From contig NZ_JAPUVI010000086.1 of NCBI RefSeq assembly GCF_029255285.1, positions 1 to 64,000 of the forward strand: a stretch of DNA of 64,000 nt, read 5' to 3'. Of the stretch, positions 39,713 to 56,127 are shown piece by piece. The notes beneath the pieces are model-generated. The model was not told the origin of the DNA. It made no database searches and saw nothing but the letters and a program-made list of their open reading frames with translations. Source of the DNA: Accumulibacter sp. GTDB taxonomy: Bacteria; Pseudomonadota; Gammaproteobacteria; Burkholderiales; Rhodocyclaceae. The first letter of the stretch is position 1, and the number at the start of each line of letters is the position of its first letter. A program made the translations under genes and the position numbers.

Positions 39713-40405
39713 ATGCAACCCCAGTATCAGATGACCAACACGGCAACTCGGGAGCTGACGCTGCAGCAGAACAGGGTTCTGCGCAACACGTTCATGCTGC
39801 TCGCCTTGACCATGGTGCCGACCGTCGTCGGCGCACTCCTCGGCGTCCAGTTGCAGTTTTCTTTCTTCGCCGGCAGCCCGTTCCTGTCTTTCGTGCTGTT
39901 TCTCGGCATCGCCTTCGGCTTCATGTGGGGTATCGAGCGCACCAAGGATAGCGCCATGGGCGTCGCCCTGCTGCTCGGCTTTACGTTCTTCATGGGCTTG
40001 ATGCTGTCGCGCATCCTGCAGGTGGCGCTAGGCTTCAGCAACGGAGGCAGCTTGATCGCCATGGCGGCCGGCGGAACCGGGGTGATCTTCTTCACGCTCG
40101 CCGGTGTGGCTACGGTGACCAAGAAGGATTTCAGCTTCCTGGGCAAGTTCCTGTTCATCGGTATGGTTGTCGTCTTGTTGGCGGCGGTGGCCAACATCTT
40201 CTTCCAGATCCCGGCTCTGTCGCTGACCATTTCGGCGCTCGCGGTGATGGTCTTCTCGGCCTACATCCTCTACGACATCAGCCGGATCGTCACCGGTGGC
40301 GAAGACAACTATATTTCGGCGACCCTCGCGGTGTACCTCGACATCTACAATGTCTTCGTCAGCCTGCTCAACCTCCTGATGGTGTTCAGCGGCGATCGAG
40401 ACTGA
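39713..40405 (+). CDS. BAX inhibitor-1/YccA family membrane protein
   Basis: The 230-residue protein has about seven membrane helices. It has the family C-terminal segment S-A-Y-I-L-Y-D-I-S-R-I-V, whose Asp residues form the proposed pH-gated calcium-leak site, and ends with Y-L-D-I-Y-N-V-F-V-S-L-L-N-L. YccA in E. coli modulates FtsH proteolysis. The ATG at 39713 has AAGGAGG eight bases upstream, clearly better than the earlier in-frame ATG at 39644. It forms a single-gene unit with its own terminator. Confidence 0.93.
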   Translation: MQPQYQMTNTATRELTLQQNRVLRNTFMLLALTMVPTVVGALLGVQLQFSFFAGSPFLSFVLFLGIAFGFMWGIERTKDSAMGVALLLGFTFFMGLMLSRILQVALGFSNGGSLIAMAAGGTGVIFFTLAGVATVTKKDFSFLGKFLFIGMVVVLLAAVANIFFQIPALSLTISALAVMVFSAYILYDISRIVTGGEDNYISATLAVYLDIYNVFVSLLNLLMVFSGDRD

Positions 40406-40428
40406 CCGCTTCCCGACCTTTGGTCGAG

Positions 40429-40457
40429 AGGGGTGGCCGGCGGCCACCCCTTTTTAT
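40429..40457 (+). terminator. Rho-independent terminator after the BAX-inhibitor-like gene
   Basis: GGGGTGGCC and GGCCACCCC form a nine-pair stem with a short loop, followed by TTTTTATT. It lies 25 nt past the stop codon and overlaps the very end of the convergent ArnD-like gene. Confidence 0.85.
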
Positions 40458-41341
40458 TGGTCCCTTTCGCCCTCGAGAAAACTCTTCCCCTGTAGCAGGC
40501 GAGGTCCCGTGCGGCCTGGGACGCCGGCGAAGACGACAGCGTGACGGGGCAGCTGCGCAATGTTGCGAGCCGCCAGCACGTCTCGCAGGGCGATCAGTTG
40601 GTGGCCTCTTTGCTGCCACTCGGCGAGGAGGAGTTCGAATGCGCTGCGGAACCGGATTCCCTCCAGTTCGGCACGCAAGGTGAAGACATGGTCACCTCGT
40701 ATCCTGGCGGAAAGCTCCAGAATCCGTTCGACCGCCTGCTCAGCCGACGCGGCCCCGGTGAGCAGCAACTCGTCGAGCGTCGGCAGGGTCGTGGGGACTT
40801 GGGGGCAGCGGACGATTTCGCCGTCTATGACCGGAAAGAAGGGATACTTTCCGCGGCAATCGCTGGCATAGCCGAATCCCAGGCGTTGCGTGAGACGCAA
40901 GGCATGGCGGCTCATCCGCCAACCGGCGGCGCCGTGCGCCGTCGCCGGTTGGCCAAAAATCGCCTCGAAACGCCGCCAGGCATGCGTCATTTCGACCTCG
41001 ATCCAGGGATTGTCGGCTGACAGCACCTTGTCTTCCCAGAGGACGCGATTCCAGGCGTGTATGGCCACCTCGAAACCCGCGTCGCGCGCTTGACGCATGA
41101 TGTCCGCGGCGCGCGTGCCGATATCGGGAGCCGGCAGGATCAATCCATCAAGGCGGGCGGAGAAGTCGTAGTAACGGCAGGGCGAGGACTGGCGCGCTTC
41201 GCGCCCGCTGCAGTCCGGGCCAAGCGAAAAGAAGAAGGTCGCCGACGCTCCGAGCCGCGGCAACAGTTCCAGGAGGAAGGGAACGCCGACGAGCGTCCCG
41301 CGGCAGGTGTCTACGTCGATCTTGAGGGCGATGCGCTTCAT
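40454..41341 (-). CDS. ArnD-like polysaccharide deacetylase family protein with altered metal site
   Basis: The 295-residue protein resembles ArnD, the deformylase of undecaprenyl-phosphate-formamido-arabinose. It starts A-L-K-I-D-V-D-T-C-R-G-T, then T-F-F-F-S-L-G-P-D, A-A-G-W-R-M-S, S-D-C-R-G and Q-V-P-T-T-L-P-T-L-D-E. In ArnD the second NodB motif reads H-A-W-D-H. Here it is H-A-W-N-R, so the second metal-binding His is Arg and the Asp is Asn. The activity is therefore uncertain. No other arn genes are adjacent. The 3' end overlaps the convergent terminator. Confidence 0.78.
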   Translation of the reverse strand: MKRIALKIDVDTCRGTLVGVPFLLELLPRLGASATFFFSLGPDCSGREARQSSPCRYYDFSARLDGLILPAPDIGTRAADIMRQARDAGFEVAIHAWNRVLWEDKVLSADNPWIEVEMTHAWRRFEAIFGQPATAHGAAGWRMSRHALRLTQRLGFGYASDCRGKYPFFPVIDGEIVRCPQVPTTLPTLDELLLTGAASAEQAVERILELSARIRGDHVFTLRAELEGIRFRSAFELLLAEWQQRGHQLIALRDVLAARNIAQLPRHAVVFAGVPGRTGPRLLQGKSFLEGERDQ

Positions 41342-41392
41342 CGTGCCGAGCCCGACGGGTGACGCCTGGTCGCCGACGACGGGTGGTGGCCG

Positions 41393-41764
41393 TCAGACAA
41401 GGAGCAGGCCGACAGCGACCTTGCGGCCTTCACCCACCAGGACGTTGTAAGTCCGGCAGGCCGCCGGCAAATCCATCACCTCCAGCCCTTTCTGGCGCCG
41501 CACCAAGGGTTGCAGCAACTCGGGGCTCGGGAAGCGAAGGCGGTCGCCGGTCCCCAGCAGGACGATTTCGGCATCGAGCGAGGCGAGCCATTCGATGTCA
41601 GCGATGGACAGCGTTTCGAAGGTCGCTTGCGTCCAGTCCGGGATCAGACGATCGGGCAGTACCGCCAGGTTGCCGGTGTGGCGGACGCCGTTTACGCTGA
41701 CATAGCCGGCACCGTAGGCGGAAAAGGTGTTCAGGCCAACGCTGCTGTCGAGCTGCAGTTTCAT
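41393..41764 (-). CDS. Mth938-like (DUF498/NDUFAF3 family) protein
   Basis: The 123-residue single-domain protein has the family pattern F-S-A-Y-G-A-G-Y-V-S-V-N-G near the start and W, D, E-I-V-L-L-G-T-G and N-V-L-V-G-E-G-R-K-V-A-V-G-L-L later. The mitochondrial homologue NDUFAF3 helps assemble respiratory complex I; the bacterial role is not settled. In Betaproteobacteria the gene usually sits divergently from alaC, as here. Confidence 0.85.
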   Translation of the reverse strand: MKLQLDSSVGLNTFSAYGAGYVSVNGVRHTGNLAVLPDRLIPDWTQATFETLSIADIEWLASLDAEIVLLGTGDRLRFPSPELLQPLVRRQKGLEVMDLPAACRTYNVLVGEGRKVAVGLLLV

Positions 41765-41910
41765 GAAAATTGCGGTGCACAGGACGTTAAAGTAGGATTA
41801 TAGCTTTTTTGCTGCAGCCGTTCAGAGTCGGATATCTCGTCGTCGCCGCCCCGCGCCGCGTGTTTGTCGTTTGCCCGACCACTGTCACGATCCTTTTCCG
41901 AGCACCCGCC

Positions 41911-43095
41911 ATGAGAGAGTTTTCGCGCATCAAACGCTTGCCACCCTACGTCTTCAGCATTACCAGCGAGCTGAAGATGGCTGCCCGTCGGCGCGGCGAG
42001 GACATCATCGACATGAGCATGGGGAATCCCGACGGACCGACCCCGCAGCACATCACCGACAAGCTGGTCGAGGCGGCACTGCGCGAGAATACGCATGGTT
42101 ATTCGATCTCGAAGGGGATTCCGCGGCTGCGCAAGGCGATCTGCGACTGGTATCAACGGCGCTACGACGTGAGCTTCGACCCGGAAAGCGAAGCCGTGGT
42201 GACGATCGGTTCGAAGGAAGGACTCGCGCACCTGATGCTGGCCACGCTCGATCGCGGCGACACGGTGCTGGTGCCGAATCCTTCTTACCCGATTCACATC
42301 TACGGGGCGATCATCGCGGGGGCCGACATCCGCTCGGTCCGCATGACGCCCGACGTCGATTTTTTCGAGGAAGTCGAGCGCGCAATCCGCGAGTCGATTC
42401 CCAAGCCGAAGATGATGATCCTCGGTTTCCCGAGCAACCCGACGGCGCGCTGCGTCGACCTCGGTTTCTTCGAGCGTATCGTTGCCCTGGCCCGCCAGCA
42501 CGACATTCTGGTGGTGCACGACCTGGCTTACGCCGACATCTGCTTCGACGGCTACCAGGCGCCGTCGATCATGCAGGTCGCCGGGGCTCGCGAGGTTGCC
42601 GTCGAATTCTTCACCATGTCCAAGAGCTACAACATGGCCGGTTGGCGTGTTGGCTACATGGTCGGCAACCGGGAGTTGTGTCACGCGCTGGTGCGCATCA
42701 AGAGTTACCACGACTACGGAACCTTCACGCCGATCCAGGTCGCTTCGGTGATTGCGCTCGACGGTCCTCAGCAATGCGTCGAGGAAGTGCGCCAACTGTA
42801 CCAGGGAAGGCGCAACGTACTCGCCAAGGGGCTGCATGAGGCCGGCTGGATGGTCGAAGTACCGAAGGCGTCGATGTACATCTGGGCGAAAATCCCCGCC
42901 GCCTACCTGCAGATGGGGTCTCTCGAATTTGCCAAGAAACTGTTGACCGATGCCAAGGTGGCCGTCTCGCCCGGTGTCGGTTTCGGCGAGTATGGCGACG
43001 ATCACGTCCGCTTCGCGCTGATCGAGAACGAAGAGCGTACGCGGCAAGCGGTACGGGGAATCAAGGACATGTTCAGAAAGGACGGGCTGCTCTAG
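41911..43095 (+). CDS. alaC: Alanine transaminase AlaC
   Basis: The 394-residue fold type I PLP aminotransferase has the PLP lysine in [26 protein letters not shown] and H-D-L-A-Y-A-D-I are also present, matching AlaC. It transfers amino groups between glutamate and pyruvate, making alanine. The first 34 codons of the longer frame (from 41809) look non-coding, and the family start [12 protein letters not shown] is at 41911. It is followed four bases later by alaA and then hom. Confidence 0.9.
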
Positions 43096-43099
43096 GCTC

Positions 43100-44338
43100 A
43101 TGGCGATGAAACCGATACTCAAGTCCACCAAACTCGACAACGTCTGCTACGACATTCGCGGCGCCGTGCTGCAGAAGGCCAAGCAAATGGAAGACGAGGG
43201 TCACCACATCGTCAAGCTCAATATCGGCAACCTGGCCGCTTTCGGTTTCGAGGCGCCGGAAGAAATCCAGCTCGACATGATCCGCAACCTGCCGAACGCC
43301 GCGGGCTACTCGGATTCGAAAGGAATCTTCTCGGCCCGCAAGGCGGTGATGCATTACACGCAGCAGAAGCACATCAAGGGCGTCACGCTGGAGGACATCT
43401 ATATCGGTAACGGTGTCTCCGAGCTGATCGTGATGGCCATGAACGCGCTGCTCAATGCCGGCGATGAAGTGCTGGTACCGGCACCCGACTATCCGTTGTG
43501 GACCGCGGCGGTGAGCCTGTCGGGCGGCACGCCTTGCCACTACCTGTGCGACGAGGCAAACGAATGGCTGCCCGATCTCGACGATCTGCGCGCCAAGATC
43601 ACGCCGCGCACACGCGCCCTGGTGGTGATCAATCCCAACAACCCGACCGGCGCCTTGTATCCCCCGAGCGTGCTGCGCGAGATGGTCGCCATCGCGCGCC
43701 AGCATGGACTGATCCTCTACGCCGACGAGGTCTACGACAAGGTGCTCTACGACGGTGCAACGCATACGGCAATCGCTTCGCTGTCCGACGACGTACTGAC
43801 GGTGACCTTCAACGGTTTGTCCAAGAACTACCGCTCGTGCGGCTATCGCGCGGGCTGGATGGTCGTTTCCGGAGACCTGCGCGACGCCCGCGACTATGTC
43901 GAGGGGCTGGACATCCTGGCGTCGATGCGCCTGTGCTCCAACGTTCCGGCACAGCACGCGATTCAGACGGCGCTCGGCGGCTACCAGAGCATCGACGACC
44001 TCATCGCGCCGGGCGGCCGCATGTGCCGCCAGCGTGACCTGGCGCACGCCTTGATCACGGCGATTCCCGGCGTCACCTGCGTCAAGCCCAAGGCCGCCCT
44101 GTACATGTTTCCGCGCCTCGACCGGCGACTCTACCCGATCGACAACGACCAGGATTTCATCGCCGAGCTGCTGCAGGAGGAGCGCGTGCTGCTGGTTCAG
44201 GGCAGCGGCTTCAACTGGCCAGAGCCGGACCACTTTCGCCTCGTCTTCCTGCCCTACGAGGACGACCTGCGTGACGCCATCGGCCGCATCGCGCGTTTCC
44301 TCGCCACCTATCGCAAACGCTTCGGGGCGCCAAGCTAG
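43100..44338 (+). CDS. alaA: Alanine transaminase AlaA-type aminotransferase
   Basis: The 412-residue PLP enzyme is close to E. coli AlaA along its whole length. Shared segments include N-V-C-Y-D-I-R-G, Y-I-G-N-G-V-S-E-L-I-V, A-P-D-Y-P-L-W-T-A-A-V-S-L-S, N-P-N-N-P-T-G-A and L-A-S-M-R-L-C. The PLP lysine lies in N-G-L-S-K-N-Y-R. It makes alanine from pyruvate. The ATG at 43100 starts four bases after alaC; an ATG two codons later fits E. coli AlaA slightly better. Two alanine transaminases in tandem imply co-regulation. Confidence 0.88.
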   Translation: MAMKPILKSTKLDNVCYDIRGAVLQKAKQMEDEGHHIVKLNIGNLAAFGFEAPEEIQLDMIRNLPNAAGYSDSKGIFSARKAVMHYTQQKHIKGVTLEDIYIGNGVSELIVMAMNALLNAGDEVLVPAPDYPLWTAAVSLSGGTPCHYLCDEANEWLPDLDDLRAKITPRTRALVVINPNNPTGALYPPSVLREMVAIARQHGLILYADEVYDKVLYDGATHTAIASLSDDVLTVTFNGLSKNYRSCGYRAGWMVVSGDLRDARDYVEGLDILASMRLCSNVPAQHAIQTALGGYQSIDDLIAPGGRMCRQRDLAHALITAIPGVTCVKPKAALYMFPRLDRRLYPIDNDQDFIAELLQEERVLLVQGSGFNWPEPDHFRLVFLPYEDDLRDAIGRIARFLATYRKRFGAPS

Positions 44339-44410
44339 AGGCCGGCCGCAGGCCTGACTGACGGCCGCCAGCCCCCATCGCCCTCCACAACCTTAAGCGC
44401 ACACTGCCCT

Positions 44411-45721
44411 ATGAAACCCATCAACGTTGGACTGCTCGGCCTCGGCACCGTCGGCGGAGGAACCTACTCCGTACTCAGGCGCAACGCCCAGGAAATCACT
44501 CGTCGAGCCGGCCGGCCGATCGCCGTGAGCGTCGTCGCCGACCGCAAGCTGGCGCGCATTCGCGAGCTGACTGGCGGCAGTTGCCGGGCCACCGACGATC
44601 CCTTTGCCGTCGTCGCCGACCCGGAAGTCGACATCGTCGTCGAGTTGATCGGTGGCGACGACGTGGCCAAGACGCTGGTCATGCAGGCGATCGAGCATGG
44701 CAAACATGTCGTCACCGCCAACAAGGCCCTGCTCGCCAAGCACGGCAACGAGATTTTCGCCGCCGCGCAGAAGCGGGGCGTCATGGTCGCCTTCGAGGCC
44801 GCCGTCGCCGGCGGCATCCCGATCATCAAGGCCTTACGCGAGGGGCTGACGGCCAACCGCATCGAGTGGATCGCCGGCATCATCAACGGCACGACGAACT
44901 TCATCCTGTCCGAGATGCGTGACAAGGGGCTGTCCTTTGCCACGGTGTTGGCGGAGGCGCAGCGTCTCGGCTACGCGGAGGCCGATCCGACCTTCGACGT
45001 CGAGGGGGTGGACGCCGCGCACAAGCTGTCGATCATGTCGGCGATCGCCTTCGGCAACTCGATGAGCTTCGACCAGGCTTTCATCGAAGGCATCAGCCGG
45101 CTCGATGCGGCCGACATCCGCTACGCCGAGCAACTCGGCTACCGCATCAAGCTGCTTGGCATCACCAAGCGCACCGCCGAAGGCGTCGAACTGCGCGTCC
45201 ATCCGACGCTGATTCCCGCCAGGCGGCTGATCGCCAACGTCGAGGGCGCGATGAACGCCGTCCTGGTCAAGGGCGACGCGGTCGGTGCCACGCTCTACTA
45301 CGGCAAGGGAGCCGGCGCCGAACCCACGGCGTCGGCCGTGATCGCCGACCTGGTCGATGTGACGCGGATGCATACCGCCGACCCGGAGCATCGCGTGCCG
45401 CATCTTGCCTTCCAGCCCGACGCGATGGTCGATCTCGCGATCCTGCCAATGGCCGATGTCGTCACGAGCTATTACCTGCGCCTACGCGTCGAGGATCGCC
45501 CCGGCGTTCTTGCCGACGTGACGCGCATCCTTGCCGACGACGGCATTTCGATCGTCGCGATGATCCAGCGCGAGCCGGGGGAAGGCGAAGAACAGACGGA
45601 CATCATCATGCTGACCCACAAGACGCGCGAAAGAAACGTCGATACGGCAATTGCCGGCATCGAAGCCTTGTCGGCGGTCAAGGGACCGATAATTCGCCTG
45701 CGCCTGGAAGATCTGCAGTAA
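44411..45721 (+). CDS. hom: Homoserine dehydrogenase
   Basis: The 436-residue monofunctional enzyme has the N-terminal nucleotide-binding G-L-L-G-L-G-T-V-G-G-G, A-N-K-A-L-L-A, and the catalytic region G-I-I-N-G-T-T-N-F-I-L. A C-terminal ACT domain (L-R-V-E-D-R-P-G-V-L-A-D-V) gives threonine feedback control. It reduces aspartate semialdehyde to homoserine for threonine and methionine. In most Betaproteobacteria thrC follows directly; here 200 nt without a gene and then a convergent histidine kinase gene follow. Confidence 0.96.
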   Translation: MKPINVGLLGLGTVGGGTYSVLRRNAQEITRRAGRPIAVSVVADRKLARIRELTGGSCRATDDPFAVVADPEVDIVVELIGGDDVAKTLVMQAIEHGKHVVTANKALLAKHGNEIFAAAQKRGVMVAFEAAVAGGIPIIKALREGLTANRIEWIAGIINGTTNFILSEMRDKGLSFATVLAEAQRLGYAEADPTFDVEGVDAAHKLSIMSAIAFGNSMSFDQAFIEGISRLDAADIRYAEQLGYRIKLLGITKRTAEGVELRVHPTLIPARRLIANVEGAMNAVLVKGDAVGATLYYGKGAGAEPTASAVIADLVDVTRMHTADPEHRVPHLAFQPDAMVDLAILPMADVVTSYYLRLRVEDRPGVLADVTRILADDGISIVAMIQREPGEGEEQTDIIMLTHKTRERNVDTAIAGIEALSAVKGPIIRLRLEDLQ

Positions 45722-45922
45722 GGCGCTGGCGCACCGAGGGTTTGCCGCAACGCGACCGGTTTCACACCGGCGTCGCGCTTGCCGGACCAAGCACCGCGGT
45801 CGGGACCATGGGAAGCGCCATTCTCGACCGCTCCGGTTTGGGCCGTCTTGGCCAGAGGGTTGCCGCGCCACCCGGGACGCCGGCCGAGGCCAGGCTAAGG
45901 GACCGAATTCACCGACGCCGGC

Positions 45923-47989
45923 TCAGGTTTCGAGGCCGTCGCGCAGGATCTTTTCGATCTTCTCGAAAGCGAAATTCTCGGCATGTTGCCGCAGAAGCTG
46001 CCCAAGCGCCTCGTCCTGCGCCTCCACTCGCGCGATCAACCTGTGGATGCGCTCGACATTCAAGGCGACGACCGCTTCGCCCAGTTCGCGCCGCAATTCT
46101 GATGGCAGCGCCTCGACGTCCGCCCGTTCTGCAACCCGCGACGACCGGTTCACCGTCGCCTCACGCTGGTAACGCACACCCAAGAGCCGCGCCAAGCACG
46201 CGAAGACGTCGGCGCGACGAAATGGCTTGTGCAGAATGTCATCCATGCCCGCCGCCAACATTTCTCCACGCTGCTCGGCGAACACCGAAGCGGTGAGCGC
46301 GACTATCTTGACGTCCTTTCCACCGTCCAGAGCACGGATGCGCCGGGTGGCCTCCAGTCCGTCCATGCCGGGCATGCGTCGGTCCATCCAGATGAAATGG
46401 GGGCGCCACGACTGGAACAACTCGACGCCGCGCAGGCCGTTCTCCGCAGTCTTCACCGGGAACCCTGCTTCTTCCAGCAGCCTGGCAAGCAGCAAGGCGT
46501 TCTCAGGCTGGTCCTCGACAATCAGGATCCGGAACTCCGGCTGGCCTGGCGCCAAGGCGAGAACCTCACCGTCTTCTCCAGGCAAGCCGCTCACTTCGGG
46601 TGCCGACACGGGCTCGATCGGCAGGTCGATAGAGAAGCAACTGCCCTGGCCAATCTCGCTGACGACACGGATTCGGCCGCCCATCAACTCGACGAACTGA
46701 CGTGTAATCGCCAATCCGAGGCCGGTTCCACTGTGCACCGACGCCTGGCCCGCCTGTACGAACGGTTCGAAGATCATCGCCTGTTCCGCCAACGCGATAC
46801 CCGGGCCGCTATCCACCACATCGATGCGCAGGCGGCGACCGTCTGCGCCGCCAGTGGCATCCAGCCGCAGCGTGACCCCACCCTGCTCGGTAAACTTGAT
46901 GGCGTTACCGAGCAGGTTGACCAGCACCTGCCGCAACCGGACTTCGTCGCCCCGAATGTGCGGTGCCACCGGCCCGCGACGTTCCAGGCGCAGATCGAGA
47001 CTCTTTTCGCGTGCGCGCTGCCCCATCATGGCAACGACATCGTTCACCGCCGAGTCGAAGTCAAATGGCGCCACCTCCAAAACGATGCGGCCAGCCTCGA
47101 TCTTGGCCATGTCGAGGATGTCGTTGATCAGGCGCAGCAGGTGTTCACCACTGCGGTTGATGATGTCCAGATGTTCCCGGTCGCGACCGGTGATGACGGC
47201 TTCCCGGCACATCAGCACCGAGAAGCCGAGGATGGAGTTGAGCGGCGTGCGCAGTTCGTGGCTCATGTTGGCCAGGAAGGTGCTCTTGGCCCGGTTGGCC
47301 GTCTCGGCCAACTCTTTGGCATGCTCCAGTTCGGCCGTGCGAACCGCCACCAGTTCCTCGAGGTGATTGCGATAGCTTTGCAACTCCAGTTCCGCACGCT
47401 TGCGTTCGGCGAGTTCGAGCGTCAGCTTCCGGTTGAGGTCGGACAACTCGGCGGTACGCGACTTGATGGTCTGTTCCTGGCGTTCGTAGAGCAGCGCATT
47501 GCGCAACACCAGAGCCAGAATGGTCGACAAAGGCCCAATCAAGGTCGTCGTGGCCGCCAGTTCAGCCTCCTCGGGCAAGCCGAGCAGGAGCAGCCCTCCG
47601 ACGTGGTGAGTACCGACCATCAAGGGCATGGCCATCGTCAGACCCATTCCTTCATCGAGCAGGATGCGCGCCGCTTCCGAAGAGTCGCCGGGACGCCACA
47701 CTTCGACGGCCGGCATGCCCCGGACCATGCCGCATAGGCGGCGAAATCCCGCCGCATCACCGACCGGTTTACGGCGCTTCGGATCGACGCTGACGATCCG
47801 GTAGTCGCTCGCTGCCGAATCGTTGTCGAACTGGATCAACAGCACGCTGCGAGCGGCGGTCATCGCACGTAGTTCCTTGGTCAAATAGCTGCCCGTATTG
47901 CCAGGGTTGTCCGCACGGTCGAGAACGTTGCTCAGAACGTCGATGGTCATGAACGACAGGGCGGGATCGTTGAAAGCGTCCCTGGTCAT
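45923..47989 (-). CDS. Cytoplasmic hybrid histidine kinase (GAF-like, HisKA, HATPase, REC), last gene of the corrinoid operon
   Basis: The 688-residue protein has no membrane helix. A GAF-like sensor region (about 25-165) is followed by a coiled coil (170-235). The HisKA box [10 protein letters not shown] carries phospho-acceptor His244. The ATPase has [16 protein letters not shown] and G-T-G-L-G-L. A receiver domain has Asp536 in [10 protein letters not shown]. The last 80 residues are helical without a clear HPt His. I chose the ATG at 47989, which overlaps the DUF1638 stop (ATGA); a GTG at 48004 is possible. No response regulator is adjacent. Being coupled to corrinoid genes suggests it senses their state. 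Confidence 0.9.
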
Positions 47990-48597
47990 CCCGCTATCGC
48001 CCACTCATCGAGCCGCCCCATCGCCTCGCTGATCGCGCTGTGCAGGCAATCGAGCGGTGTGGCACGTGACTCCCATGGCAGACCGCAATAGTCCGCAATC
48101 GCCCGCAGCTTCTCTTGCGGCACGGACAGCAAGCCAGTATCGAGATAGACGATCAGGCGATGCAAGTCGCCCATCAGCCCTCTGGCATTGGCCCGATCGA
48201 GACCCAACTCGTTCGCGAAGAAGCGCTCGCCTCGCTGCGCCCATTCCGGCAGCAGGAAGTAGGCACCGTCGCGCGCGTCCCGCCGGTAGCGTTCGCGGCC
48301 GAGCAGCAGTTCGGCACAGTTGGCTCCCTTGGTCAGCACGACGCCGGGTTGCGCCGCAAGCTGCCGCATCCCGACGTAGCAGTCGCCATAAACCAGGACC
48401 ACCCCTCGCCCGGTCCTCCGTTCCTCCTCGACGATCGCTTCCAGTTGCTCACCGAGTCTAGCCGGACAAACGTGCAACATGGAGCGCACGACGCGAATCC
48501 GTAGCGCGGGCCAGTGGATCTGCCAGAGCGCCTCGACCTCGGCCGCGAACACCGAGCATACGACCAGCGTCGGTGGACAAGGCCCGCATCCGGTCAC
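47986..48597 (-). CDS. DUF1638 protein in the corrinoid/histidine kinase operon
   Basis: The 203-residue protein fits DUF1638. It has a conserved C-x(n)-E-V start ([10 protein letters not shown]), then [21 protein letters not shown], and [10 protein letters not shown]. The conserved Cys and His residues (H-V-C-P, G-D-C, N-C-A-E) could bind metal or corrinoid. The function is unknown, but the family tends to occur beside corrinoid methyltransferase genes. It overlaps both neighbours by four bases, so it is produced together with them. Confidence 0.82.
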
Positions 48598-49619
48598 CGG
48601 CGATCCCCAGCAAATTCCTCCACCGATTTCCGGAAGGCGTGAATGTTGGCCGGAGGCGTATCGATGTACATGTCACCTTTGCAACTGGCCAGAATGAAGC
48701 GCGGGTCGTCGCGCCGATTCTCCAGTGTCTTGCGGCACACCGCTTCGACATCCGCTGCCGCGGCTCGCCGCATCCACGGTGACGCGGGCCCGCTGAGCAG
48801 AATGGAGTCTGCGCCAAGAAGCCGGCGCGCCCGTTTCAGGTTGTCGCCCTGCGCGAGCACGAAACCGGCGACGGAAGGCAAACCCGACAAAACATCCAGG
48901 TTGGCCACGAGGGGAAATTCCAAATGGTGCAGGACGACCGGCCCATGAACTCGCGCCAAGGTATCAACCAGCACGGGCCGCGAAAACTCCTGCAATATCT
49001 CGCGGGTGACGAAACCTGGCGAAGCGAAGCCGATTGTCCACACGACAAAGGCAGCGCCATCGGCGAAGCAGCGGTTGGCCAGGTCCGCGGCGAAGGGAGT
49101 CACTCGCTGCATGATCGCCTCAGCCGCTGGACGATCGAACAGCAAGGTTTCCAGCCAGGCATCCAGACCCATTACCAGCCCGGGAATGTCGATTGGCGCG
49201 ACGAGAAGCACGGCTACCGGCACTTCGCGCCCGTGTTCGGCGACCACGCGCCGCAACGCCTCCCGCAGGTACGACAGACGCGGATGCCGGTCCGGATCGG
49301 GAAGCGGCAAACCTTTCCATTCGGAGGCCGCCTCGATGGCTGGGGTCGACACCACGGGCGGTCCCTTGTCGAAATAGCGGGCCTTGCTGCCGAATGCCTC
49401 GCCGATCGCGGCGACGATCACGGGGCCGAACAATATGTCCGGGGCAAAGGTTTCGCGTACCGCCGTCTGCCCGCGAGCATAAGCCGCCGGGTCATTGTAA
49501 TGCTCCTCCAGGGAGCAGCCGGTCAAAGCCGCGCTGTACTGGCTCAACGGCATGGTGAACATTCGCCGGTCGGCCATTTCACCCGCCAACAGGCATTGCA
49601 GGCGCTGGAGGCTGTTCAC
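48594..49619 (-). CDS. UroD/MtaA/CmuA family methyltransferase-like protein, atypical metal site
   Basis: The 341-residue TIM-barrel protein belongs to the uroporphyrinogen decarboxylase superfamily, in the branch of MtaA/MtbA/CmuA enzymes that move methyl groups between corrinoid proteins and thiols. Conserved parts are R-M-F-T-M-P, P-D-I-L-F-G-P, K-G-L-P-L-P-D, and the C-terminal F-I-L-A-S-C...T-P-P-A-N-I-H-A-F. In MtaA-type enzymes zinc is bound by H-x-C plus a later Cys. Here the first motif reads L-H-H-L, so the Cys is Leu, while the later Cys is kept. Catalysis may differ, or the protein may only bind its corrinoid partner. It overlaps both neighbouring genes by four bases. Confidence 0.85.
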   Translation of the reverse strand: MNSLQRLQCLLAGEMADRRMFTMPLSQYSAALTGCSLEEHYNDPAAYARGQTAVRETFAPDILFGPVIVAAIGEAFGSKARYFDKGPPVVSTPAIEAASEWKGLPLPDPDRHPRLSYLREALRRVVAEHGREVPVAVLLVAPIDIPGLVMGLDAWLETLLFDRPAAEAIMQRVTPFAADLANRCFADGAAFVVWTIGFASPGFVTREILQEFSRPVLVDTLARVHGPVVLHHLEFPLVANLDVLSGLPSVAGFVLAQGDNLKRARRLLGADSILLSGPASPWMRRAAAADVEAVCRKTLENRRDDPRFILASCKGDMYIDTPPANIHAFRKSVEEFAGDRR

Positions 49620-50335
49620 CGGGCGTCCTCGAAGCGTTCGCCGCGCGCCCAGAGCTCCGCGAAAAGATGGGGCGCTTCGAGCATGTCCGGCGCGGTGCCA
49701 TCTCCCCCCACCTCATCGCACAGCCCGTCGGCAACGAGAAACACGGCGCCGCCCACCGCCAGTTGAATGCGACCGGACAGCCCTCGGGCGTCGAGCTCAC
49801 GCCGGACTTCCTTGATGTTCAGTGCCGTCGTCACGGTCATCGCCGACACGCCGATGACCCGCGCGCCAATCTCGATCGCCTTGTCTACGAACTCGGCCGC
49901 CGGCACATCGTTGCCCAGATCGCAAACGACCCACCCGCTGGAGCGCAGCATCGTCGCCACCATGCGGCGACCCAGGGCATGGAAGTCTTCCTCCGCGTTG
50001 CCGAGAACCACCGGCCCTTTGGCCGTTCTTTGTTCGCTGTTCTGCGCGAACGATCCGGCGGACTTGGTCAACATGTCTTCGGCCACCTTGGCCGCGACAT
50101 AGGCTTGAGCCAGCGAAAAGCGTTCCGAGTTGATACCGCGACCGATTCTTTTCAGGGCCGGCTCGAGAAGATCCTTGTACGCCGCGGCATAACCGTGTCG
50201 CGCAGCCCAGTAGTCGAGCAATTGTCCAGCCCGTTCGCGATCGGCGCGGCTGATTGCGGCCACCAAGGCCCGCCGAATGTTCAGATCGGAAAGCTCGCCG
50301 TCCGGGTGCTCGCCTGGTGTCATCTCGACGTCCAC
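49616..50335 (-). CDS. Corrinoid (B12)-binding protein, MtaC/MtbC-like
   Basis: The 239-residue protein has the usual two modules. A helical cap domain (about 20-95) carries L-L-E-P-A-L-K-R-I-G. The Rossmann-like B12 domain has the base-off ligand motif D117-x-H119-x-x-G122, followed by V-I-G-V-S-A-M-T and L-A-V-G-G-A. His119 should coordinate cobalt. Such proteins carry methyl groups in corrinoid-dependent methyltransfer. It is the first gene of a four-gene overlapping operon with a UroD-like methyltransferase, DUF1638 and a hybrid histidine kinase. No reductive activase (RamA) or substrate-specific methyltransferase (MttB type) is present nearby. Regulation is not visible; I found no B12 riboswitch upstream. 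Confidence 0.9.
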   Translation of the reverse strand: MDVEMTPGEHPDGELSDLNIRRALVAAISRADRERAGQLLDYWAARHGYAAAYKDLLEPALKRIGRGINSERFSLAQAYVAAKVAEDMLTKSAGSFAQNSEQRTAKGPVVLGNAEEDFHALGRRMVATMLRSSGWVVCDLGNDVPAAEFVDKAIEIGARVIGVSAMTVTTALNIKEVRRELDARGLSGRIQLAVGGAVFLVADGLCDEVGGDGTAPDMLEAPHLFAELWARGERFEDAR

Positions 50336-50945
50336 CTATACTATCCGGACACGCCGCGGATCGCGATCGGTGCTAGGCCGACGTTGCCTGCGAGCTGCCG
50401 AGCGCGCGTCCTGGCCGACTGGAGAGCGCGATATCGGCCGCTGGGGTGCCTGGGAGGGATCATTTCACCGCGCTGCGCGGCGTCGATGCGTGTACGCTCG
50501 CATTGAGCCATTGCTACATTGCTACATTGCTAATGTTGGTGCTCCGGTCGTCGGAGCGTTCGTGTGGCATCGTGGGCCCCACTATTCTTGATGCTCGGGA
50601 TGGATGCCAAGCCCATCCGTCAGGCTGTTTCCCTGGCAAATGGTGGCGATCCGGTCACCCGCTGACTGGGCAGGATTCCAAGCAGCGTATAGTTCGTATT
50701 ACATTCTCGACTGAGCAATTGATACCCATGCGAAACCATCGGTGCTGCCTTCGCTTTTCGCTTCACTCATTGAGAGTTGATAGCTTGCCTGTCCGATCGT
50801 CACTCCGGAAGCGCCGGTGTTTGCGCGCCCACGACAGTCGACCCGCCGCGTGCCGAGTCGGACATGCTCCGGAACTTCGGTCTAGCCATGGCCTGACCGC
50901 CGGTACAAGCCGGCGCCGACTCCCTTGCTTCCGCAGGAGGCCCCA
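50336..50945. other. Gene-poor divergent intergenic region (610 nt)
   Basis: The long open frames here on the plus strand have no domain, a Cys/Arg-rich composition and no good start, and are not supported. The region must hold the promoters of the corrinoid operon and of the caspase-like gene. Its only clear structure is a short tandem repeat at 50508-50535. Composition is slightly less GC-rich than in the flanking genes. Confidence 0.5.
50508..50535. repeat. Short tandem repeat (ATTGCTAC, almost three copies)
   Basis: The eight-base unit ATTGCTAC occurs twice and is followed by ATTGCTAA. It lies between the corrinoid operon and the caspase-like gene and could be a regulatory repeat or a slippage-prone tract. 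Confidence 0.6.
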
Positions 50946-53900
50946 ATGACGCGCTTACTGGCCCTCGGGCTGATGCTTCTGGTCTCGCTTGCCTCTGCGC
51001 AGCCGAGTGGTCTGCCGAGCGGACAGCCGTCCGCCAAGCCGGTGTTCACCATCGATCCGGGCGTGCACGCGGGCAACGCGTATCGCCTCGCGACAACGCC
51101 CGACGAACGTCATCTGGTCAGCGTCGGGCTCGACAAGACCATACGCGTCTGGGACGTCGACAGCGGACGGCAAGTGCGGCGACTCATTCTGCCGGTGGCC
51201 GGCCGCCATGACGGGCTGCTTTACGCGCTGTCCCTGTCGCCCGACGGCCGTCTGGCCGCCGTTGGCGGCAGTCTTTACAGCTTCGGCAAGGGACGCTCGG
51301 TGGCCATCGTCTCGCTGCAGGATGGCCGCATCGTAGGCGCTTTTCCCGGTTTCGAGTCACCGATCACGGCGCTTGCCTGGTCGTCCGACGGCCGCCTGCT
51401 GGCCATCGGTTTCGTCGACGACAGTGGCGGCACCGAAAGCGGCCTGCGCATCCTCGAGGTCGACGGCGGCCGCCGTGTGTTCGAGGACCGATCGCTGACG
51501 GGCAACATCTCGGCCCTTGCCTTTCGCGCCGACGGTACGCTCTTCGCGACTTCGCACAACTATCCCGCCGCCAGTCGGGTAGTCCTCTACAAGCCGGCCG
51601 GCACCGGTTTCAACCGCGTCGCCGAGCGCGTCCTGACGGACCGCGGCGCTTTTCGGGCCTACTGGACAGCCGACGAGCGGGCGGTCCTCGTTTTCGGCCA
51701 CGGCCTCTACGATGGCGAATCGCTCGCCGCGCTGCCGTATCGATTGAACCGCAGCGCCATGCCGACGGGCGTTCGCTCGCTGATCGTTCGCGAATCGCCC
51801 GACGGTCGCCATATCTTCGGCGCCGCCCACGCGCGCGACAGCGCCAGCGGGCTCATCCGGCGCTGGAACGGGACGGGCTACCAGCGCCAGGGCTTCGACG
51901 ACCTGCGTGTCCCCGACCGTCGCATCGCCGATGTCGTTGCTTTGCGCAGCGGCGTTCTCGCCTACCTTTCCGAAGACGGCGCGCTTGCCGCGGTCGGCCC
52001 GGACATGCAAATTCTCTGGCGCAACGCGCGCGCGGTGGCCGAACTCGATGGTCATCCCGAAGCGCTGCTGGTTTCCTCCGATGAGCAGCGGGTCGCGCTG
52101 CCGGTACTGGCCGAGCAGAAAGGCCGCCTGCTGGCCTTTACGCTCGACAACCCCGGGTTTGCCGCCGTCGACGCGGCCCGCGAAGCATGGCAGGCACCGC
52201 TGACCAGTCGCTCGGGTATGAATGTGCTGGCCTGGCAGGGGACGAGCGAAGGCACCGTCAATGGCCAGCCGCTTCCGAAAACCAACCGGCGCGAGCGCTC
52301 GCTGTCGGTAGCAGTGCATTCGAGCGAAGCGGCCTTGGTCTATGGATCGTCACAACGCTTCCTGCGCAAGGTAAGCGATCAGGGCGGCGAACTATGGAAA
52401 CGTTACCTGCAGGCCGACGTGGTCGCCGTAAATCTGCTCGAAAAGCGCGCTTTGGTCGTCGCCGCGACCCTCGACGGCTTCATTCATTTGCTGCGTTGGC
52501 GCGATGGCGAGCCACTGATGAGCTATTATCTGCAACCCGGCGACCGCAAGTGGCTGGCCATCTCACGGGCGGGCTATTACGAAGCCGCCATCGGCGCCGA
52601 GGACCATGCTGGCTGGATCGTCAGTAGCGACCCGGGGCGAACGGCCGACTTCTTTCCCCTGTCGCGTTTTCGCGCCACTTATCTGCTCCCGGGAATGGTT
52701 CGCCAGGTCCTTTCCGCTGGCGACCAGCGCCAGGGGATCGGCGCCGCCAAGCGCGAGCGCGGCAACGTGCGGACACTGGAGAGTGCCTCGACCGCCAAGC
52801 CCGCTGGTGATGCTCCGGCGCCATCGGCAGCGCGTCAGACGGCGAACGGGAAATCCGGAACGGGCCGGCCAGCCAGTCCCGACGACGGGCAGGGTCAGGA
52901 AATCAGTGCACCCGCTGTCGACCGTCTGCCGCCAGTGGTCGACATCGTCAGGCCGGGATACGAGGCCAGCGTCAGCAAATCGCCGCTCACGCTGGCTTAT
53001 CGGCTGCGCACGCCGGCCGGTGCACCGGTGATCCGAGTCCGGCTGCGGGTCAATGGCCAGGAAGCGCCGCTCGGCGCCGAGGCCTGGGTTGCGCAACCGG
53101 CCGGCGAGGCGACGCGCGAGCTGACTGTCGAACTGCCGGCCGAGGATGCCGAGTTGCAACTGATCGCCGAGAACGCCCACGGCGCCTCTGTACCGGCCGT
53201 CGTACGCGTGCGCTATCTGGGGGAAAAGAAAGTCGCGGCCGCCGAGAACGACCTCTATGTCCTGGCGGTCGGCGTGTCGGCCTACGACAAGCCTGAGTAT
53301 CGACTGGACCTCGCGGCCAAGGACGCCGCGGACTTTGCGACGCTGATGCGGCGACAGGAGGGAACGATGTACCGCAAGGTGGTCGTCCGCACGCTGGTGG
53401 ACGGCGCGGCGTCGAAACAGGCGGTCGAAGCGGCGCTGGCCTGGCTGAGAGGTGCCGTCCGGCCGCACGATACGGCGATGGTCTTTCTCGCCGGACATGG
53501 CGTCAACGATGGTCGCGGCGAGTATCTCTACCTGCCGCGCGATGCCGACGCGTCGCGCCTCGACGCCACCGGCGTCAGCTTCTCGCTGATCCGCCGGACC
53601 CTGACCAGTCTGCCCGGCCGTACGCTGATGTTCGTGGACACCTGCCACGCCGGCAACGTCATCGGCACAGCGCGCCAGCGGCTCGACAACACCGAGGCCA
53701 TCAACGAACTGGCGAGCGCTGAGAACAACATCGTCGTCTTCGCGTCGTCCGCGGGAACGCAGGAATCGATGGAGGATCCGGCGTGGGGCAACGGAGCCTT
53801 TACCAAGGCTCTGCTCGAGGGCCTGCGCGGCGCGGCCGATCTGAAGAAACGCGGCCGGATCACTTACAAGCAACTCGACGCCTACGTCTCGGACCGCGTC

Positions 53901-53999
53901 GACGAACTGACGCGCGGACTGCAGACGCCGGTCACGCCGGTACTGCAGGGTCTGCCGGATTTCATCATCGTACTGCTTGCCCAGTGGCGACAGCCATGA
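50946..53999 (+). CDS. Large exported WD40-like / caspase-fold (peptidase C14) protein
   Basis: The 1017-residue precursor has a signal peptide cleaved near A-S-A-Q-P. About 550 residues of beta-propeller-like sequence follow, with WD-type repeats such as D-K-T-I-R-V-W-D-V and L-S-P-D-G-R-L-A-A-V. A Pro/Ser-rich linker (about 595-660), an Ig-like segment (about 665-755) and a C-terminal caspase domain (about 765-1015) complete it. The catalytic His851 is in L-A-G-H-G-V and Cys900 in V-D-T-C-H-A-G-N. It is therefore probably an active Arg/Lys- or Asp-specific cysteine peptidase in the periplasm. The ATG at 50946 has AGGAGG upstream. The targets are unknown. Confidence 0.9.
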   Translation: MTRLLALGLMLLVSLASAQPSGLPSGQPSAKPVFTIDPGVHAGNAYRLATTPDERHLVSVGLDKTIRVWDVDSGRQVRRLILPVAGRHDGLLYALSLSPDGRLAAVGGSLYSFGKGRSVAIVSLQDGRIVGAFPGFESPITALAWSSDGRLLAIGFVDDSGGTESGLRILEVDGGRRVFEDRSLTGNISALAFRADGTLFATSHNYPAASRVVLYKPAGTGFNRVAERVLTDRGAFRAYWTADERAVLVFGHGLYDGESLAALPYRLNRSAMPTGVRSLIVRESPDGRHIFGAAHARDSASGLIRRWNGTGYQRQGFDDLRVPDRRIADVVALRSGVLAYLSEDGALAAVGPDMQILWRNARAVAELDGHPEALLVSSDEQRVALPVLAEQKGRLLAFTLDNPGFAAVDAAREAWQAPLTSRSGMNVLAWQGTSEGTVNGQPLPKTNRRERSLSVAVHSSEAALVYGSSQRFLRKVSDQGGELWKRYLQADVVAVNLLEKRALVVAATLDGFIHLLRWRDGEPLMSYYLQPGDRKWLAISRAGYYEAAIGAEDHAGWIVSSDPGRTADFFPLSRFRATYLLPGMVRQVLSAGDQRQGIGAAKRERGNVRTLESASTAKPAGDAPAPSAARQTANGKSGTGRPASPDDGQGQEISAPAVDRLPPVVDIVRPGYEASVSKSPLTLAYRLRTPAGAPVIRVRLRVNGQEAPLGAEAWVAQPAGEATRELTVELPAEDAELQLIAENAHGASVPAVVRVRYLGEKKVAAAENDLYVLAVGVSAYDKPEYRLDLAAKDAADFATLMRRQEGTMYRKVVVRTLVDGAASKQAVEAALAWLRGAVRPHDTAMVFLAGHGVNDGRGEYLYLPRDADASRLDATGVSFSLIRRTLTSLPGRTLMFVDTCHAGNVIGTARQRLDNTEAINELASAENNIVVFASSAGTQESMEDPAWGNGAFTKALLEGLRGAADLKKRGRITYKQLDAYVSDRVDELTRGLQTPVTPVLQGLPDFIIVLLAQWRQP

Positions 54000-54021
54000 C
54001 CTTTTGTGAAAGTCAAGCCTA

Positions 54022-55185
54022 ATGCGTCCCCCACCTCTTGCCGGTCTTCGCGTCCTCGATCTGACACGCCTTTTGCCAGGGCCGCTGGCCAGCATGCACC
54101 TTGCCGACCTTGGTGCTGACGTCGTCAAGATCGAAGACACCGGCGCTGGCGACTACGCGCGCGGCGCCGGCGCGATCCATGGCCAGATCAGCTATTTCCA
54201 GCTCGTCAACCGCAACAAGCGCAGCCTTTGCCTCGACCTCAAGCAGGCGGCGGGAGTCGCCGCCTTCATGCGCCTCGCGGCGACAGCCGACGTCATTCTC
54301 GAGGGCTTCCGCCCTGGCGTTGTAGACAAGCTGGGTATCGGCTACGCGGCCGTCGCGGCGATCAACCCGCGCGTTACTTACTGTGCGATTACCGGCTACG
54401 GGCAGGACGGACCTTACCGCGACCGCGCCGGCCACGACCTCAACTATCTCGCCTATTGCGGGCTGCTCGACCAGATCGGCCTGCCCGGCAGCGCACCGGC
54501 GGTGCCGAATTTCCAGATCGGCGATCTCCTCGGCGGCTCGCTGACCGCGTTGCTCGGGGTGCTGGCCGGGGTCGTCGACGCGCGCCAGAGCGGCCGCGGC
54601 CGTTACGTCGATGTGTCGATGACCGACGCCGTTTTCGCGCACACTCTCTTTCCGCTGCTCGCCGTTCTTGGCCTGGGGCAGGCGCTACCGCGTGGCGAAG
54701 ACGTCCTCTCGGGCGGCATGCCTAGCTACGGCGTCTATGCGACGCGTGACGGCCGATACATGGCGGTTAGTGCGATGGAGCCGAAGTTCTGGCAAGGCCT
54801 TTGCGACGCCATCGAACGCCCGGACCTCAAACCGTTCGCCTTTGCTTGCGGCGCCGACGGCCAGCGTATTCGGCGCGAACTTGAGCTGGCCTTCGCCGAA
54901 CGTAGCTTTGCCGAGTGGACGACCGTCTTCGAGCGCGTCGACTGCTGCGTGACCCCAGTACTGCGCCTCGAGGAGAGTATCGAGAACGCGCAACTGCGGG
55001 CGCGGGCCATGATCGTCGAGGTCGACGGCGTCAAGCAATTTGCCCCGCCGTTCAAGATCAGTGACCTACCCTTCGAGGCTCGGCTGCCACCGCCGGCCGC
55101 GGGCGAGCACAGCGAGGACGTTCTACGGTCCGCCGGTTTCAGTGATCAAGAGATCGGCGGCCTGCGCGCGCAGAAAGTGATCTGA
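54022..55185 (+). CDS. CaiB/BaiF CoA-transferase family protein (alpha-methylacyl-CoA racemase-like)
   Basis: The 387-residue class III CoA-transferase fold has the N-terminal L-R-V-L-D-L-T-R-L-L-P-G-P, the V-K-I-E-D motif, N-R-N-K-R-S-L, and the segment G-H-D-L-N-Y-L-A. That last segment carries the His/Asp pair used by alpha-methylacyl-CoA racemase rather than by true transferases. It likely epimerises 2-methyl-branched acyl-CoAs, or transfers CoA. It starts 22 nt after the caspase-like gene; a functional link is not evident. Confidence 0.85.
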   Translation: MRPPPLAGLRVLDLTRLLPGPLASMHLADLGADVVKIEDTGAGDYARGAGAIHGQISYFQLVNRNKRSLCLDLKQAAGVAAFMRLAATADVILEGFRPGVVDKLGIGYAAVAAINPRVTYCAITGYGQDGPYRDRAGHDLNYLAYCGLLDQIGLPGSAPAVPNFQIGDLLGGSLTALLGVLAGVVDARQSGRGRYVDVSMTDAVFAHTLFPLLAVLGLGQALPRGEDVLSGGMPSYGVYATRDGRYMAVSAMEPKFWQGLCDAIERPDLKPFAFACGADGQRIRRELELAFAERSFAEWTTVFERVDCCVTPVLRLEESIENAQLRARAMIVEVDGVKQFAPPFKISDLPFEARLPPPAAGEHSEDVLRSAGFSDQEIGGLRAQKVI

Positions 55186-55251
55186 TTCCTTCCCACTGCG
55201 TCATGGTCACGCGAGCCGGGCGGCCACCGGGCCAGCGGCGCGACCCCGACA

Positions 55252-56127
55252 TCAGGCGGGCGGCGAGTCCGGTTCGAGCGCCCGAATGGCTAGCACGCCG
55301 ACCGAGATGTTGTCGCTGCCGCCGCGCTCGCGCGCCAGTTGGATGAGTTGCCGGCAGGCTTCCTCCGGCTCCGCAGTATCGACGATGCGGGCGATCTCGC
55401 GCGCATCGACAGTGTCCCACAGCCCGTCGGAACAGAGAACGAAACAGTCGCCAACTTGCGGCGGATCGCCATGCTGAGCGATGACCCACAGCTTCTCCTG
55501 TGTTCCCACGGAACGCAGGAGAACGTTGCGGGCCGGGTGATGGGCCGCCTGCTCGGGGCGGATCAGGCGGTTCTTGACCATCTCTGCCACGAAGCTGTCG
55601 TCCTCGGTGAGCTGCCTGCAGCGACCGGCACGGCAGCGGTACAAGCGACTGTCGCCGACATGGGCAAAGAGTACGCCACTGCCCACCAGAACGAGGGCCG
55701 TGGCCGTCGTGCCCATACCCTCGAGCCTCGAGTCCGCCGCGGCGGCGCGAAACACGGCACCGTTCGCTTCGCGCACCGCCAATGCCAGCGCCTGCGCGGC
55801 GGCGTCGCTCGTTGTCGCGTAATAGTAGCGACAGATCGTCTCGACCGCTATGGCGCTCGCCACTTCGCCTCCGTTGTGCCCACCCATGCCGTCCGCGACC
55901 ACCGCCAGCACACCGAGCCGCCGACGAACTTCGGCATCGCCCGGCGAGACGAAGGCGATCGAATCCTGATTGCTCTCGCGCACGCAGCCGACATCGCTCG
56001 CCATGAACGCGTCGACCACGTAGTCTGGCGGGGTAGCGCGTGGCGCGGCCACGCCACTCTTCCGACCGAACTGACCCGGCCAGAAACGCGACACCGCTCC
56101 CGCCACTCGCGAACTCCACTTGCCCAT
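55252..56127 (-). CDS. PP2C family Ser/Thr protein phosphatase
   Basis: The 291-residue protein shows all PP2C motifs in order: S-D-V-G-C-V-R-E-S-N-Q-D, V-A-D-G-M-G-G-H, G-M-G-T-T-A, A-H-V-G-D-S-R-L-Y, C-S-D-G-L-W-D and R-G-G-S-D-N-I-S-V. The metal-binding aspartates are intact. An N-terminal stretch of about 35 basic residues precedes the domain. Such PrpC/Stp-type enzymes reverse Ser/Thr kinase signalling, often in type VI secretion or cell-wall control. No partner kinase or FHA protein is adjacent. It is convergent with the CoA-transferase gene. Confidence 0.9.
   Translation of the reverse strand: MGKWSSRVAGAVSRFWPGQFGRKSGVAAPRATPPDYVVDAFMASDVGCVRESNQDSIAFVSPGDAEVRRRLGVLAVVADGMGGHNGGEVASAIAVETICRYYYATTSDAAAQALALAVREANGAVFRAAAADSRLEGMGTTATALVLVGSGVLFAHVGDSRLYRCRAGRCRQLTEDDSFVAEMVKNRLIRPEQAAHHPARNVLLRSVGTQEKLWVIAQHGDPPQVGDCFVLCSDGLWDTVDAREIARIVDTAEPEEACRQLIQLARERGGSDNISVGVLAIRALEPDSPPA

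Follow-up and report, generated by a model that had tools for sequence, protein, structure and literature searches.

A corrinoid protein, a UroD-family protein and a DUF1638 protein as a candidate sensory module for a hybrid histidine kinase in Accumulibacter

B12 is known in signalling mainly from light receptors and riboswitches. In receptors of the CarH and photocobilin kind the B12-binding domain is the sensing part, some of these proteins being fused to other domains (PMC11796333, PMC10979010), and GxxW, EH, GxxH and GxxxP form the light signature of B12 photoreceptors (PMC11796333). The mec cassette of dichloromethane degraders encodes a corrinoid protein, a CmuA/MtaA-family methyltransferase, a histidine kinase and a receiver together (PMC9768040). 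In Phaeobacter inhibens, a split methionine synthase is accompanied by a RamA-like protein and a DUF1638 protein that adjoins the corrinoid protein; DUF1638 is needed there for B12-dependent methionine synthesis, and the 2018 genetics paper proposes no specific function for it in the passages drawn on here (PMC5764234). Ruegeria DUF1638 rises on N-osmolytes and is predicted to help recharge cobalamin (PMC12478193). Type 1 mlp gene clusters, for which a role in methyl-sulfur or selenide metabolism has been proposed, join UroD-superfamily methyltransferase homologs to a corrinoid protein and a reductive activase (PMC10418091).

The locus described here lies in the window, the whole 64,000-nt stretch of Accumulibacter DNA that was analysed (Table 1). 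Its four genes run on the minus strand in the order corrinoid protein, UroD-family protein, DUF1638 protein and GAF hybrid kinase, and at each junction the start of one gene overlaps the stop of the preceding gene by 4 nt, so that the operon drawn in a preliminary description of this DNA stands at 3/3 junctions. The kinase frame opens at GTG 48004; the ATG is the better start, giving the same 4-nt overlap as in the related loci L008 and L009. The preliminary description had also remarked on the missing substrate methyltransferase and activase, and three family searches of the own genome agree, finding no RACo (0 matches to RACo_C_ter), no MttB and no further methyltransferase-type UroD. Divergently from the operon, 50925-53999 (+) encodes a large protein with a repeat-like N-terminus, which has no counterpart on the L008 contig by blastn and contains VDTCHAG, presumably a caspase-like motif.

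Table 1. Features of the operon, in window coordinates
Feature	Coordinates	Strand	Remarks
Corrinoid (B12-binding) protein	49616..50335	(-)	239 aa, GTG start
UroD-superfamily methyltransferase-like protein	48594..49619	(-)	341 aa, GTG start, 4-nt overlap with preceding gene
DUF1638 protein	47986..48597	(-)	203 aa; predicted metal ligands C14, H42, C73, C94
Soluble hybrid histidine kinase	45923..47989	(-)	likely start ATG 47989
Kinase input domain, GAF, about 190 residues	47420..47989	(-)	
Nucleotide homology to L008	45831..50742	(-)	blastn, 92.8% over 4926 columns

A genome search for the four-gene set, suggested earlier as a check, recovered the same order both close by and in another phylum. 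On an 11.9-kb contig of Ca. Accumulibacter vicinus (L008) the four genes recur with the same order and 4-nt junctions; homology extends beyond the operon by about 400 bp upstream and 90 bp downstream. Since blastn finds no further match of that contig in the window at E 1e-10, the operon appears to be a discrete cassette whose surroundings differ between the two genomes. A Desulfobacterales contig (L009) keeps the order and the 4-nt overlap at all three junctions, with corrinoid, UroD-family and DUF1638 proteins 62%, 44% and 52% identical to those of the window and a kinase in which a GAF domain, 47% identical to the N-terminus of the window kinase, is followed by PAS domains. Full-length matches to the window kinase were found in 0/24 other genomes of the genus (at most 28 candidates being scored per genome), which suggests that the module is rare near home.

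By Pfam the kinase consists of GAF, signalling helix, HisKA (SHELRTP), HATPase, receiver and a C-terminal tail, the GAF being assigned by a GAF model and a fold search; with the phospho-acceptor His of HisKA, HATPase_c and a receiver in one chain it is a hybrid histidine kinase. Its four closest own-genome paralogs are 60-66% identical over the transmitter (about residues 196-690) and no own-genome paralog match covers the input domain, which is kept in L008, L009, L090 and L093; the input thus appears to have been swapped onto a stock transmitter. Several contigs of the genome carry members of this large hybrid-kinase family, which share the transmitter and differ in their N-terminal parts (19 matches at E <= 1e-80, window kinase included).

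The signalling neighbours of DUF1638 were surveyed more widely. PF07796 matched in 7/300 genomes of the order, 57/398 of the phylum and 73/297 of the phylum of L009, and 161 of 162 DUF1638 places (our own counted once, L108 left out) were scored with HMMs built here. A UroD gene was counted as nearby if it lay within 2.5 kb on the same strand, and a signalling domain (kinase, GGDEF, EAL, HD-GYP-type or PAS) if it was fused to DUF1638 or encoded by the next gene. UroD was nearby at 36/161 places, and a signalling domain was present at 23/36 of these versus 1/125 places lacking UroD, the downstream sequence being limited to about 1.1-1.5 kb at 26 of the 125 (Fisher p 1.2e-17, a value inflated by related genomes, which are not independent). 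The sole positive counted as UroD-less, L050, has its start 110 bp from the end of a contig and its upstream side beyond it. In 4/23 positives PAS alone stands next door (L054, L061, L070 and L090, the last ending at a contig end). Among the 13 UroD places not scored as signalling, L011 has the triad of corrinoid, UroD-family and DUF1638 proteins and no adjacent output gene, L048 and L052 stop at contig ends (the L052 fusion of DUF1638 already reaching GAF), and L066 has a PAS-GAF-PAS protein next by Pfam; the other nine look metabolic (L013, L105, L114, L120, L122, L131, L135 and, twice, L142), as judged by eye from the gene lists of five loci and from script calls only for L122, L135 and L142.

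UroD-family proteins of the sensory loci fall into three clades: a window type (4 sequences, support 88/75), a fusion type (8, 100/100) and a RACo type (15, 99/99). Five of six metabolic UroDs in the tree lie outside them; L013, the remaining one, attaches weakly and by a long branch. RACo adjoins the corrinoid gene in 12/15 RACo-type loci (L092 and L103 are without it and L089 is cut upstream), suggesting that this variant undergoes redox turnover; the available flanks of window-type and fusion-type loci yielded no RACo. The module occurs in 25 sampled genomes, 20 of them spread over ten families in the phylum of the window and five from the phylum of L009. Three genomes hold two clades each, G308 (L066 and L046), G444 (L055 and L048) and G737 (L089 and L090), as expected of paralogous sensors. 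Pairwise distances of the three proteins correlate (Spearman 0.65-0.88, 276 pairs), which fits co-inheritance and also shared ancestry, and the GAF domains of the clades resemble one another only weakly.

The histidine kinase output occurs as a separate gene or fused. DUF1638-kinase fusions lie downstream of corrinoid and UroD genes in L014, L015, L046, L047, L049, L051 and L182 (Azoarcus sp. KH32C), and DUF1638 of L050 is fused likewise. L093 encodes a DUF1638-GAF-PAS-PAS-HD chain whose GAF matches the N-terminus of the window kinase and whose terminal domain is HD_5 and HD by Pfam, plasmid relatives being annotated as HD-GYP. The gene after the triad in L012 encodes PAS-PAS-GGDEF-EAL, and a plasmid of Ca. 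Thiodictyon syntrophicum (L183, NZ_CP020371.1, 38703-43694) carries a corrinoid-UroD-RACo-GAF-diguanylate cyclase operon with no gene labelled DUF1638 in that stretch. At L075:2550-4355 (-) corrinoid protein and UroD share one 601-aa open frame, either a fusion or an assembly frameshift. A PAS protein stands next to the triad in L054, L061 and L070, as the PAS-GAF-PAS protein does in L066, with a kinase 2.2-3.2 kb further on, an arrangement that would make a longer signalling chain. In these four loci an extra gene after the triad, judged by eye, resembles that for a substrate-binding protein.

Such exchange of outputs behind a conserved input is suggestive of a sensory module. Comparative sequence evidence gives a probability of roughly 0.85 that the corrinoid, UroD-family and DUF1638 proteins together make up some kind of sensory module, and it is probable, if less firmly so, that the corrinoid serves as its reporter. 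The idea that the corrinoid protein and its partner act as a sensor, put forward in the preliminary description, is supported by the conserved order, the DUF1638-kinase fusions and the arrangements of L093 and L012.

The window corrinoid protein matches PF02310 (E 2.9e-18), with PF02607 just below cut-off, and its nearest solved chain is 1y80 (E 1.6e-20). It carries the cobalt-ligand His motif as DFHALG, and DxHxLG is found in 25/25 sensory corrinoid proteins covering the site. It shares with methyltransferase-cognate (MtbC/MtgC-type) proteins a B12-binding domain with the DxHxxG cobalt ligand; its score against the corresponding NCBIfam model, TIGR02370, is 87.2 bits versus a cut-off of 215.3. 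Weak structural relatives are 8j2w-8j2y, which we take to be B12 photoreceptors fused to other domains.

The UroD-family protein matches PF01208 (E 3.7e-36), and a profile of 14 sensory UroDs finds MtaA (4ay7, E 4.9e-26) as its best solved match. The zinc ligands of MtaA are, we assume, H-x-C and a C-terminal Cys, and this full set is kept by 0/27 sensory UroDs, which makes methyl transfer to a thiol unlikely. The window protein reads VLHHLE at the H-x-C site (HHL, the Cys missing), and it has an SCK displaced by one column from the third site, leaving that single ligand ambiguous; L009 keeps H-x-C and most members of the RACo-type clade only the Cys. The window protein also scores 37 bits against the MtaA/CmuA model TIGR01463 (cut-off 235.4). 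The UroD fold may serve only ligand binding, and the retention of the barrel in every clade suggests that there is a substrate.

DUF1638 itself scores 95.8 bits against the curated cut-off of 27 for PF07796 (E 3.2e-27). Among 157 sequences of the family C73 and C94 are invariant, C14 is kept in 96% (the remainder being gaps) and H42 in 94%, and 142/157 have all four. Nine fusion-clade sequences lack H42, and in 9/9 a Cys stands one position earlier, as it does in KH32C; this swapped ligand argues for a four-ligand metal or Fe-S site, so that DUF1638 is a predicted metal or Fe-S protein. Elsewhere DUF1638 is fused to hydantoinase/oxoprolinase domains (L105:5240-8176, L124:4471-7326), which suggests an activase partnership in metabolic systems.

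As a working model, the three proteins would form a cytosolic module whose state is read by the kinase GAF. The UroD-family protein would present the corrinoid-bound cobalamin with a small substrate, probably some methylated compound, and this cobalamin might then be methylated, Co(I) or oxidised; DUF1638 would reset this state or relay it to the GAF, and the GAF would switch the kinase, phosphoryl passing to the kinase receiver and on to a regulator. Complex formation, methyl chemistry and relay through DUF1638 are what we infer, and DUF1638 as corrinoid resetter is a guess. Against the module, RACo is missing from the window and L008 genomes, the L009 genome having one elsewhere, and the nine UroD places with no signalling neighbour look metabolic. 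If the module is a sensor, a methyl donor read through the corrinoid state is put forward tentatively as its likeliest signal; cobalamin redox or oxygen is rather unlikely, some other signal slightly more so, corrinoid supply improbable and light very improbable.

More speculatively, a whole corrinoid methyl-transfer machine may have been turned into a detachable sensor, comprising a methyl-accepting corrinoid protein, a UroD-fold substrate arm, the DUF1638 metal protein and, in one clade, an ATP-driven activase; slow demethylation would measure the methylated compound, and the cobalt state would pass through GAF to kinases, diguanylate cyclases or HD-GYP phosphodiesterases. If true, the module would count as an enzyme-cycle sensor, and B12-based signal transduction would gain a new class that has nothing to do with light. 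By linking kinases and cyclic-di-GMP enzymes to corrinoid methyl chemistry, a recurring module of this kind would allow C1 or methylated compounds, or the cobalt redox state, to be sensed, and DUF1638 would gain a testable metal-binding role.

One locus bears on the signal. The corrinoid-UroD-[DUF1638-kinase] operon on plasmid pAZKH of KH32C, whose DUF1638 part has the motif and scores 22.5 bits, under the Pfam cut-off of 27, has formylmethanofuran dehydrogenase genes on one side and, on the other, a gene cluster for PQQ methanol/ethanol dehydrogenase; fae and Calvin-cycle genes also lie in the vicinity. These methanol-oxidation surroundings suggest C1 sensing there; the clue does not generalise, because Fae was found in 0/25 module genomes searched.

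The alternative that survives best, though it is unlikely, keeps the sensor and changes the signal: oxidation or photolysis of the corrinoid would itself report cobalamin redox, oxygen or light, and the UroD-family and DUF1638 proteins would only load or shield the corrinoid. The predicted four-ligand site of DUF1638 would suit electron transfer, and the existence of B12 photoreceptors fused to other domains (PMC10979010, PMC11796333) is a further point in favour; the UroD barrel in every clade, suggesting a substrate, speaks against this reading. Light had been among the signals first proposed and does not fare well. EH of the light signature is kept in 0/24 sensory corrinoid proteins covering the site (the window helical cap reads LAQAY), and GxxW is missing from the same cap, which reads GRGI; GxxW is found in L009, L093 and those fusion-clade members covering the site. 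CarH-type light sensing is accordingly unlikely on the residues tested.

Somewhat less probable still is a metabolic corrinoid methyltransferase operon with its own two-component regulator, like the mec cassette, in which the shared operon reflects co-regulation only. That cassette (PMC9768040) and the roles of DUF1638 in Phaeobacter methionine synthesis (PMC5764234) and the Ruegeria N-osmolyte response (PMC12478193) are in its favour. However, RACo, MttB and a second methyltransferase-type UroD were not found in the window genome by family searches, DUF1638 shares a chain with kinase or HD-GYP-type domains, outputs swap while the triad stays, and DUF1638 without UroD is almost never beside a signalling domain (1/125). 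A sensor of corrinoid supply, in which the kinase would read B12 status from whether the corrinoid protein is apo or holo, would explain the presence of a dedicated corrinoid protein, no metabolic partner of which turned up in three family searches; it leaves the UroD-family and DUF1638 proteins unexplained and, as a weak argument, no cobalamin riboswitch lies above Rfam thresholds in 40000-56000, so that it is improbable. A chance neighbourhood with no functional link, to which the large paralog family of the kinase transmitter might point, is hardly credible given the same junctions across two phyla and the fusions.

Among known systems, those of Phaeobacter and Ruegeria share the DUF1638 protein, proposed to recharge cobalamin with RamA, and in Phaeobacter also its place beside a corrinoid protein; they are enzymatic, with a RamA-like activase, and the passages drawn on describe no UroD-family protein or kinase (PMC5764234, PMC12478193). 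CarH and photocobilins likewise sense through a B12-binding domain, but the passages drawn on describe no UroD or DUF1638 partner for them (PMC11796333, PMC10979010), and EH, in the window also GxxW, is missing here. The main text of the Type 1 mlp paper is without the words 'histidine kinase', 'sensor' and 'DUF' (PMC10418091). MtaA (4ay7) belongs to the same fold family as the sensory UroDs, and differs in its full zinc set. The remark that no described system of this makeup is known agrees with the open-access literature, where no corrinoid-UroD-DUF1638 signalling module appears among the matches listed; nor was the mec paper (PMC9768040) among the matches listed for DUF1638. From the passages drawn on, the mec cassette is metabolic, with several methyltransferases and a PocR-domain kinase unlike that of the window, and, in encoding corrinoid, CmuA/MtaA-family, histidine kinase and receiver proteins together, it is the nearest precedent in the literature covered here for corrinoid proteins in a kinase operon (PMC9768040).
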